Source of the DNA: Terriglobales bacterium
GTDB lineage: Bacteria > Acidobacteriota > Terriglobia > Terriglobales > Acidobacteriaceae
Direction: 5' to 3'
Assembly (NCBI GenBank): GCA_035573675.1
Contig: DATMAB010000020.1
Span: 1-64,000 of the forward strand
DNA: 64,000 nt
Below are positions 11,727 to 41,970 of the stretch, piece after piece. The position numbers and the translations under genes were made by a program. The notes under the pieces were generated by a model, which saw nothing but the letters and a program-made list of their open reading frames with translations, made no database searches and was not told where the DNA came from. Every line of letters begins with the position of its first letter. Within the stretch, counting starts at the first letter, position 1.

Positions 11727-11842
11727 GAATTGTCGGATTTCGGAATTGTCGAATTGAAGAATCGTGTCTGAGTCTGGAAGCAATTGACAGGCGTCGCTCG
11801 CCCGCAACTCAATTCGTAAATTCGTCAATTCGACAATTCAAT
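11727..11842. repeat. Inverted pair of octamer arrays between fabI and tsaE
   Basis: Directly after the fabI stop come four 8-nt units (GAATTGTC, GGATTTCG, GAATTGTC, GAATTGAA; 11727-11758). A second set follows at 11811-11842 (AATTCGTA, AATTCGTC, AATTCGAC, AATTCAAT), in inverse orientation to the first. The halves could pair into a long hairpin between two convergent genes, so a bidirectional terminator role is plausible. The right-hand array runs into tsaE and supplies its last codons and stop. It is AT-rich compared with its surroundings. Confidence 0.65.
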
Positions 11843-29205: not shown

Positions 29206-29242
29206 CCCACGTTCGCGCCGCGCTGTTCGGCGCTAACGTGGG
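29206..29242. repeat. 37-nt hairpin family, copy D
   Basis: CCCACGTTCGCGCC, 9-nt loop, GGCGCTAACGTGGG, with 13 of 14 pairs. It lies between sppA and the convergent SnoaL-like gene; the right arm overlaps the last codons of that gene. It could stop transcription from both sides. Confidence 0.75.
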
Positions 29243-32422: not shown

Positions 32423-32432
32423 GCGCCAATTG

Positions 32433-32488
32433 TGAACTATGCACTGCGAACTACGAACCTAGTTCAAAGTTCACAGTTTACAGTTCAT
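32433..32488. repeat. Heptamer array, 8 units in two inverted halves
   Basis: Eight consecutive 7-nt units: TGAACTA, TGCACTG, CGAACTA, CGAACCT, then AGTTCAA, AGTTCAC, AGTTTAC, AGTTCAT. The second half is the reverse complement style of the first, so the whole can fold back. It fills the gap between the previous stop and lolA and starts about 10 bases after that stop. Confidence 0.75.
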
Positions 32489-32497
32489 ACTTGTCCC

Positions 32498-38806: not shown

Positions 38807-39394
38807 TTGAAACTGGGGCTGGAAAACCGGCGCATGGTGGCGCTGCTGGCGCTGACGGTGGCCGCAGGACTCTATACCGTGCCGCGCATGTTCCGCAGCC
38901 TGGAGCCGCAGCCGGTGGCTTCGGCCGGTGTGGCCGCGGTCTCCGCGCCGAGCCCGCGGCAGCGGAACGCGCCGAGGCGGGCGCGTCGCATGCCGCCCGC
39001 GGCCTCTCTCGATCCGACCCTTCGCCTGGACCTGCTGCGCGCCAGCCAGGAAACCGAGTACCGGGGCACGGGAAGGAACATTTTCGAGAGCCAGGCGGAG
39101 GCGCCTAAACCCGTCGTGCCCGTGGCGCGGCCGGGGGGAACGCCGGTGGCGTACAGCGGCCGTCCACCGGGTCCGCCGCCCCCGCCGCCCATCAACCTGA
39201 AGTTCTTCGGCTTCGCCAGCCAGCCCGGCGAACCCAAGCGGGTCTTCCTGTCGCAGGGAGAGGACGTGTTCATCGGCGGCGAGGGCGACATCATCAACCG
39301 CCGCTACAAAATCGTGCGCATCGGCGCGAGCGCCGTGGAGGTGGAGGACCTGCAGTACAACCACCGGCAGACGCTGCCGTTGACGCAATCGTAG
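38807..39394 (+). CDS. Small membrane-anchored protein, PilP/GspC-like position
   Basis: 195 residues, start TTG 38807 with CAGGAGA seven bases upstream. One N-terminal transmembrane helix (ALLALTVAAGLYTVPRMF), a basic Pro/Arg-rich linker, and a C-terminal small beta domain: LKFFGFASQPGEPKRVFLSQ, GEDVFIGGEGDIINRRYKIV. The last segment resembles the homology region of PilP/GspC proteins (a beta motif with 'V...G..I...Y.v..I'). In pilus operons, PilP follows PilO and binds the secretin, which matches this position. Classic PilP is a lipoprotein; here I see a helix and no lipobox. So I call it PilP-like by position and partial pattern. Confidence 0.65.
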   Translation: MKLGLENRRMVALLALTVAAGLYTVPRMFRSLEPQPVASAGVAAVSAPSPRQRNAPRRARRMPPAASLDPTLRLDLLRASQETEYRGTGRNIFESQAEAPKPVVPVARPGGTPVAYSGRPPGPPPPPPINLKFFGFASQPGEPKRVFLSQGEDVFIGGEGDIINRRYKIVRIGASAVEVEDLQYNHRQTLPLTQS

Positions 39395-39418
39395 GCGGCA
39401 GCAGAGCCGCCGACTACA

Positions 39419-39492
39419 GCGATTAGCAATAAGCAGTAAGCGATAAGAAACAAGTCCTCTTTGCTTATGGCTTATTGCTTATCGCTTATTGC
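39419..39492. repeat. Mirror heptamer arrays forming a long hairpin
   Basis: Left arm 39419-39447 is four 7-nt units (GCGATTA, GCAATAA, GCAGTAA, GCGATAA) plus G. Right arm 39464-39492 is four units in the opposite sense (CTTATGG, CTTATTG, CTTATCG, CTTATTG) plus C. The arms are complementary at 24 of 29 positions, with a 16-nt loop. It lies 24 bases after the previous stop and runs up to the start of the pseudopilin gene, where it also creates a false TTG start at 39475. Confidence 0.8.
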
Positions 39493-39504
39493 CGTTTGCG
39501 AGAA

Positions 39505-40221
39505 GTGGAACCTCTATCCAAAGCGCGCCGCAAGAGCCGCAGGAGCGAGCGCGGCTACGCCCTGCTGGCCATCCTGCTGGCGTTGATGCTGATGCTGCTG
39601 GCCATGACGGTATCAGCGCCGGTGATCGCGCACCAGATCCAGCGCGAGCGCGAGGAGGAGATGATCCGGCGCGGGCGGCAGTACGTGCGCGCCATCCAGC
39701 GATACTACCGCAAGTTCGGCCGCTATCCCGCCAAGCTGGAAGACCTGGAAAACACCAACAATCTGCGTTTCCTGCGGCGCCGCTACAAGGATCCCATGAC
39801 GGAGAGCGGCGAATGGCGCATCATCCATTTCGGCGAAGCCCGTCCGCGTGCCGGCCAGGCTGCGAGTGGGGCTCAGCCGGTGCTGCCCGGAGCGCAGCCG
39901 GCGGGCGGGACAAGCAGCCGACAAAGCGGTGCAGATTCGCGAGCGCCGGGCCGCCCGGCGGGAGATTCGCTCTCCGGGCAGCGCTTCGGCGGCGGGCCGA
40001 TCGTGGGCGTCGCCAGCCAGAGCGAAGAAGAATCCATCCGCGAACTCGAAGGCCGGACCCACTACAACGAGTGGGAGTTCGTCTACGACGTGTCGCAGGA
40101 TCCCGGAGCGCGTCCGCCGGTGCTGCCCGGACAGCCGGGTCAACCGGGAAGGCCGGGTCAGCCAACGCCCTCAACGCAGCCGCAACCGCAGCCTTCGCCC
40201 GGCCAGCGACCGAACCTGTAA
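39505..40221 (+). CDS. Type II secretion/type IV pilus pseudopilin, GspG-like with a Pro-rich tail
   Basis: About 238 residues. The leader is long and basic (ARRKSRRSERG), cleaved before YALLAILLALMLMLLAMT. The mature residue 5 is Ala, not the usual Glu, so self-assembly may differ from a major pilin. Residues 45-110 hold REREEEMIRRGRQYVRAIQRY and FGRYPAKLEDLENTNNLRFL, typical of GspG-like pseudopilins. The C-terminal 130 residues are Gly/Pro/Gln-rich (PGQPGQPGRPGQP) and look disordered. I use GTG 39505 because the longer TTG 39475 lies in the repeat. A short palindrome (AAGGCGCG/CGCGCCTT, 40220-40237) follows the stop. Confidence 0.75.
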   Translation: MEPLSKARRKSRRSERGYALLAILLALMLMLLAMTVSAPVIAHQIQREREEEMIRRGRQYVRAIQRYYRKFGRYPAKLEDLENTNNLRFLRRRYKDPMTESGEWRIIHFGEARPRAGQAASGAQPVLPGAQPAGGTSSRQSGADSRAPGRPAGDSLSGQRFGGGPIVGVASQSEEESIRELEGRTHYNEWEFVYDVSQDPGARPPVLPGQPGQPGRPGQPTPSTQPQPQPSPGQRPNL

Positions 40222-41918: not shown

Positions 41919-41970
41919 GCAGCCGTCAGCATTCAGCCGTCAGCCATCAGCAAAGGCTGATCGGCTAATC
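41919..41970. repeat. Heptamer array directly after tRNA-Leu
   Basis: GCAGCCG, TCAGCAT, TCAGCCG, TCAGCCA, TCAGCAA (41919-41953), then two units in inverse sense (GGCTGAT, CGGCTAA). The array begins 6 nt after the tRNA CCA, so it could act in 3'-end formation of the tRNA transcript. Confidence 0.7.

Follow-up and report, generated by a model that had tools for sequence, protein, structure and literature searches.

Introduction

Scattered bacteria have been known for decades to carry heptamer repeats, on the origin of which there is no agreement. In Xanthomonas, arrays of the heptamer GGGAATC are dispersed, mostly intergenic and rarer between divergent genes, and about 70 sites per genome consist of two arrays that converge, one on each strand; the single or inverted-pair type of a site is usually kept between species, with variable length (PLoS One 2015, PMC4692102). 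The Beggiatoaceae feature TAACTGA as intergenic 7-nt direct repeats, present in many copies per genome, patchy among lineages and mostly situated just upstream of start codons; the genome has only one indirect (inverted) repeat (MacGregor, 2015, PMC4679880). A predominance of period 7 has been noted for long simple sequence repeats, for which slippage tied to the polymerase footprint was proposed (PMC4679880, PMC4692102). The STRR/long SSRs of cyanobacteria and others are described as direct arrays, inverted pairs being reported as few in Nostoc. REPs are single palindromes of 20-40 nt with a tag, whose arms are not arrays of tandem units, and the Foldback elements of Drosophila, which are eukaryotic and of kilobase scale, carry inverted arms of short tandem subrepeats around a variable middle. 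No report of heptamer-type mirrored arrays in Acidobacteriota was found in the open-access literature searched.

The hairpin treated here lies in bases 1-64000 of contig C20 (the window, i.e., the whole stretch of 64,000 nucleotides that was analyzed) of a 3.16 Mb soil-type Acidobacteriota genome (G000, the host genome). Among sequenced genomes, Acidobacteriales/"Sulfotelmatobacter"-type MAGs are closest to it. The closest known system is the inverted pair of GGGAATC arrays in Xanthomonas, with which the host shares two nearby convergent arrays of one word (42 mirrored arrays; polarity 101:3). Nevertheless, Xanthomonas uses one G-rich, quadruplex-capable word, whereas many AT-richer degenerate words with periods of 7, 8, and 10 occur in the host, and those found (GCRRTAA, CAGCNNT, GGTAATTN, TGAATCAT, CACAGAGG, and others) are neither GGGAATC nor equipped with quadruplex G-tracts. 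Also unlike in Xanthomonas, words are replaced between relatives, arrays abut stop codons and a polarity is demonstrated for single arrays as well. The Beggiatoaceae repeats resemble the host arrays as intergenic 7-nt repeats of high copy number in patchy lineages, but they consist of one fixed word, and related heptamers are rarely repeated. Heptamer arrays of the STRR/long SSR kind share the period, the intergenic position and the lineage-patchy occurrence, and tandem units of ~7 nt were indeed found above chance and mainly between genes in the host; the difference lies in their description as direct arrays. REP/BIME sequences with RAYT are hairpins dispersed in intergenic DNA as well, close to the 3' ends of genes, and RAYT-like genes exist in the host genome; yet the arms of the host elements are made of tandem units, and their abundance does not go with the Y1_Tnp count. 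With the Drosophila Foldback elements there is a likeness in build only, and homology is not claimed. In the host genome, many words at three periods occur together under one strict rule: starting from the edge of the gene, the word is directed into the gap, whether the array is paired or single.

Structure and gene context of the hairpin

Four GCRRTAA-type units are opposed by four reverse-complement units at positions 39416-39495 (Table 1), which bears out the four-versus-four heptamer hairpin proposed in a first-pass annotation of this DNA. The arms given there (39419-39447 and 39464-39492) match at 24 of 29 positions around a 16-nt loop, exactly as counted, and the best ungapped arms are paired at 28 of 35 positions around a loop of 10 nt. 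Folding in both strand senses, suggested together with the hairpin as a check, gave strong structures compared with shuffled sequences: -40.8 kcal/mol (z -3.9) for RNA of the + strand and -39.4 kcal/mol (z -4.6) for the - strand, with 0 of 200 shuffles as good in either case.

Table 1. Features of the hairpin locus and further arrays in the window
Feature	Position	Strand	Remark
Mirrored 8-mer array, GTCGAATT type	11727..11839		Convergent gap
Weaker mirrored array, GTGAACT / AGTTCAC units	32427..32493		Score 12, cut-off 13
Upstream gene, 195 aa, matched in 38/41 genomes searched	38807..39394	+	Last before hairpin in T2SS/type IV pilus-like run
5' arm, degenerate units of word W (GCRRTAA): GCGATTA GCAATAA GCAGTAA GCGATAA	39416..39450	+	
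Loop/core	39451..39460		10 nt between longest arms; 16 nt (39448-39463) with the arms of the first-pass annotation
3' arm, reverse complement of W: TTGCTTATGGCTTATTGCTTATCGCTTATTGCCGT	39461..39495	+	
Downstream gene, prepilin-like protein	39505..40221	+	Start GTG 39505 inferred from same-genus ortholog
Direct array CAGCNNT, inverted half only degenerate	41920..41951	+	Just 3' of tRNA-Leu

The 5' arm starts 21 nt past the upstream gene's stop codon. The neighboring run is T2SS/type IV pilus-like (T2SSF, T2SSE, PilN-like, T2SSM_b); for the 195-aa upstream protein itself, a Pfam match was not found. Since both orthologs of the prepilin-like gene have 18 residues up to RGY, its true start is placed at GTG 39505, and the hairpin is therefore intercistronic. 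The longest mechanical ORF of this gene (39475-40221) opens at a TTG at 39475, inside the 3' arm, and an automatic annotation would be likely to misplace the gene start. Comparison of Rfam covariance models with the window returned tRNA-Leu as the sole match and none for the hairpin; a known RNA family was rejected on this basis.

Mirrored arrays as a genome-wide class

The survey covered 1.63 Mb of the host genome, including 195 kb of intergenic DNA, with gene boundaries drawn by a simple home-made gene finder, which is a caveat. In the intergenic part, 173 arrays of period 7, 46 of period 8 and 17 of period 10 were counted, compared with 0.4, 0.8, and <1, respectively, in dinucleotide shuffles. 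The remaining periods that are not multiples of three stayed at about chance level, multiples of 7 and 8 excepted. Arrays with units of ~7 nt were mainly noncoding in 189 cases and mainly coding in 27, although coding DNA is 7 times larger. With a score cut-off of 13, the hairpin search found 77 strong hairpins in 1.63 Mb, as opposed to 0, 1, and 2 in three shuffles, and 42 of the 77 are mirrored arrays with periods of 7-10 (44 if the period range is widened). The superposition of unit structure and palindrome pointed out earlier for the single locus is supported, and so is the recurrence of the same build.

The words of the mirrored and intergenic arrays comprise GCRRTAA, CAGCNNT, GCTTTCC, GTTTCTC, TGAATCAT, GGTAATTN, GTCGAATT, CACAGAGG, CACGGATTNA, and others, which can be condensed to loose superwords, i.e., G[CT]NN[TC][AC]A for 7-mers, TTGRRTMA for 8-mers and a 10-mer with CAC[GA][GA]A. 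The arms have a GC content of 44% compared with 64% in the genome. No mutual similarity was found among the cores of the genome's mirrored arrays, nor was any target-site duplication longer than 6 nt found at the elements. Inverted matches were in 2-3-fold excess within the same gap (8.4%) over other gaps (3.1%), with a similar excess of direct matches, a comparison which is less informative than the hairpin search and the polarity tests.

The first-pass annotation had named three further arrays of like build in the window. This is clear for the one at 11727-11842, the best arms of which (11743-11762 and 11820-11839) are 95% complementary, and weaker for 32433-32488, which scored just below the cut-off. 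At 41919-41970, the direct CAGCNNT array is clear, but the inverted half was missed by both hairpin searches; GGCTGATCGGCTAATCGC can be recognized by eye as an inverted copy, though a degenerate one.

Polarity

Among mirrored arrays with similar words in all genomes, the word of the 5' arm had the same polarity in 101 cases and the opposite one in 3; restricted to the host genome at a score of >=14, the ratio was 50 to 0. Arrays without an inverted partner, oriented by their superword, obey the same rule: 115 point inward from the nearer gene and 42 outward (P 5e-9), with 69:23 at 3' edges and 46:19 at 5' edges. With both arms of any mirrored arrays included, inward and outward arrays numbered 33:14 in the congener G001 (P 0.008), 15:4 at loci of family relatives (P 0.02) and 11:6 at more distant loci, a bias of like direction that is not significant. 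An ascertainment artefact caused by stop codons could favor W at 3' edges for words containing TAA or TGA, but it should not yield an equal bias at 5' edges. Selection near gene ends could partly be reflected in the polarity of the single arrays. A search of 297 genomes for the strict mirrored GCNNTAA pattern returned 5 loci in the host and 1 each in two other genomes, compared with 0 in the host and 1 elsewhere for the pattern of reverse polarity.

A LacPavin Acidobacteria contig of 10.9 kb (L069) contains at least 5 mirrored arrays of several words within one 10-kb region. Its word GCGGATT, opposite in polarity to GCTCTCC of the host, is among the few exceptions.

Comparison with relatives

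The orthologous pilus gap of the same-genus genome G001 measures ~30 nt and lacks the hairpin; many other relatives likewise have a short gap. Mirrored arrays of other words occupy it at six loci (L038, L073, L053, L047, L039, L069), and one more was recognized by eye (L007). A conservation of the hairpin specific to this gap was rejected: the strict detector found a mirrored array in the pilus gap of 6 of 77 relatives, which is not clearly above the background of 5% in tandem gaps overall (22/415). In 148 orthologous gaps of >=20 nt, arrays were shared by host and G001 in 23 cases, restricted to the host in 18 and to G001 in 9, and several of the shared array gaps hold different words.

Matches to the word GCNNTAA amounted to 91 in the host, 10 in G001 and 8 in G002; most members of the family had 0. 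Array matches to CAGTNNY numbered 147 in the host, 54 in G001, and 119 in G025, with 0 in G030, a congener of the latter. On these counts, word abundance is best read as the outcome of a burst-like, lineage-specific spread.

The pair G025 and G030, with 119 and 0 matches in one genus, offers a natural starting point to seek a gene associated with the spread. Control patterns written backwards gave up to ~200 matches per strand in G278 and ~100 in G310, so that sizeable array families with other words are probably present in these two genomes.

Pairing of the two arms

The coupling of the arms was tested by permuting whole units inside one arm and recomputing the best pairing score. For 7-mers, the observed score was 17.4 compared with 16.9 after permutation (median P 0.72), and for 8-mers 17.7 compared with 16.3 (median P 0.44); none of the hairpins had a P below 0.1. 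Mismatches between the arms mostly fall on the free positions of the word. Accordingly, the arms pair because both are built of one degenerate word. At C20:146591, which is a GTTTCTC element, the unit content of one arm differs from that of the G001 ortholog, and the other arm is unchanged save one inserted base. The idea that the gain of a unit on one side is matched on the other is not supported, given the neutral permutation and this change of units in one arm only. Arms drifting apart with loss of pairing, named at the time as evidence to the contrary, were not observed either, as shared elements still pair at word level. At the 10-mer element C20:89662, by contrast, CACAAAGG of the host corresponds to CACAGAGG in G001 in both arms (AAAGG to AGAGG), and the core is related between the two genomes (loop similarity P 0.004). 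The word change in both arms means that homogenization across arms does occur.

A proposed dispersed two-armed element

There appears to be an even chance that the hairpin belongs to the copies of a two-armed ("foldback-like") element which is dispersed between genes and which would be related, with its many words, to the paired GGGAATC repeats of Xanthomonas. Such an element would comprise an array of W, an unrelated core and the reverse-complement array, i.e., two inward-facing tandem arrays. Elements would enter or regrow in gaps directly after stop codons, their arrays would lengthen and shorten by slippage inside each arm, and they would spread through the genome in word-specific bursts, with copies presumably moving as two-armed units and single arrays representing half-elements that lack one arm. 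The long hairpin would then be a by-product of one degenerate word in opposite orientations rather than a product of units copied one by one or of selection that acts on the pairing of single bases. The fixed polarity would follow, because a palindromic two-armed element keeps its W-rcW polarity when copied either way; if single arrays were inverted independently, a ratio of ~1:1 would be expected, and the polarity would not be explained. New insertions are predicted to arrive two-armed and with the same inward polarity.

Dispersal is favored by the excess of arrays and of mirrored arrays, the polarity of paired (101:3) and of single arrays, the strict pattern (5:0), the empty gap of the congener, the word bursts, the neutral permutation and the one-armed change. 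The absence from the congener and the word bursts bear only indirectly on a putative movement to new sites. Against dispersal stand the cores, which unlike those of ordinary MITEs are not shared, the lack of target-site duplications of more than 6 nt, the lack of a candidate enzyme and the paired change at C20:89662. It is doubtful whether a new class of bacterial foldback elements is represented. Such a class would consist of intergenic two-armed arrays of degenerate words of 7, 8, or 10 nt, polar at gene boundaries, and its word-specific bursts would involve no known kind of transposase or reverse transcriptase.

Several known identities were rejected. A MITE does not agree with the dissimilar cores and the missing target-site duplications over 6 nt. 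REP/RAYT-driven spread was dismissed since Y1_Tnp counts do not track array abundance; the array-rich genome G025, with its 119 CAGTNNY matches, has no Y1_Tnp match. No RVT_1 (reverse transcriptase) gene was found in the host genome, which dismisses a reverse-transcriptase/telomerase-like or DGR-like origin. A virus-borne origin was rejected with only 2 viral-contig matches.

Alternative explanations

A function at the RNA level is possible, though rather unlikely. The hairpin would be a stem-loop under selection, at a 3' end or between cistrons (terminator, RNase barrier or attenuator), in which the word is free to change while the stem persists. The location of the elements speaks for it, as they start at a median of 4 nt past the stop codon in tandem gaps (<=12 nt in 83%) and 5.5 nt in convergent gaps, and their density per kb is ~8 times higher in convergent than in divergent gaps. 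Strong folding on both strands, the pair-preserving changes in both arms of C20:89662 and the stems of different words in the same pilus gap of different relatives are consistent with it as well. Still, the variable arm positions are unmatched beyond the shared word, and single arrays, which are unable to fold in this manner, show the same polarity. In addition, the hairpin is missing in the congener, and mirrored arrays are not clearly more frequent in the pilus gap (6/77) than in other tandem gaps (22/415). Minus the element, 66% of the occupied tandem gaps would be <=35 nt long, compared with 36% among all tandem pairs, so that a strong terminator would break operons. A T-rich tail (>=6 T within 10 nt) accompanies 4 of 49 elements only, and no T-tract is visible 3' of 39495. 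An intrinsic (Rho-independent) terminator was rejected on the basis of this count and of the low GC content of the arms (44% compared with 64% in the genome). A transcript-end role of the hairpin is not favored, because it lies inside a pilus/secretion-type run without a T-tract and the elements mostly occupy tight operon-like junctions. A strong hairpin between cistrons of such a genome is not necessarily a terminator.

A mere mutational by-product is distinctly improbable. Slippage would make arrays of 7-8-nt units in unconstrained gaps, and template switching or local inversion would mirror some of them, with neither an element nor a function involved. Unit number does differ between congeners, and period 7 predominates, as in long simple sequence repeats elsewhere (PMC4679880, PMC4692102). 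Nevertheless, one degenerate word occupies dozens of loci, with zero for the control pattern, and slippage leaves both the fixed polarity and the word-specific bursts between congeners unexplained; the polarity rule and the single-word bursts thus argue against plain local slippage.

An addition of arrays to DNA ends at breaks, in a telomere-like extension of both ends which are then joined through filler, is hardly credible: it would yield W-core-rcW by construction and explain the fixed polarity, the unrelated cores and the one-sided arrays in one step, but the host genome is without a reverse transcriptase, the flanking gene order is unbroken, and a template-independent enzyme that adds a degenerate 7-mer is not known.

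Other palindromes of the host genome

A separate dispersed hairpin family, REP-like in appearance, occurs at 29206-29242 of the window and at C26:89929-89967, C10:44954-44990, and C10:302116-302152 of the host genome, with the sequences CCCCATGTCTGCGCC..GGCGCAGACATGGGG and the variant CCCACGTTCGCGCCG..CGGCGCTAACGTGGG. The genome carries seven Y1_Tnp (RAYT-like) genes. An inverted repeat, CCAGCAATTACGTGCT..AGCACGTAAGTGCTGG, at C7:25332-25409 (near L261) is located ~70 nt upstream of the Y1_Tnp match C7:25481, which is likely a RAYT with its own palindromes. A further dispersed family of GTAGAGACGTTGCAAGCAACGTCTCTAC-type palindromes was observed at C27:13201-13270, C27:378060-378118, and C26:37340-37371.
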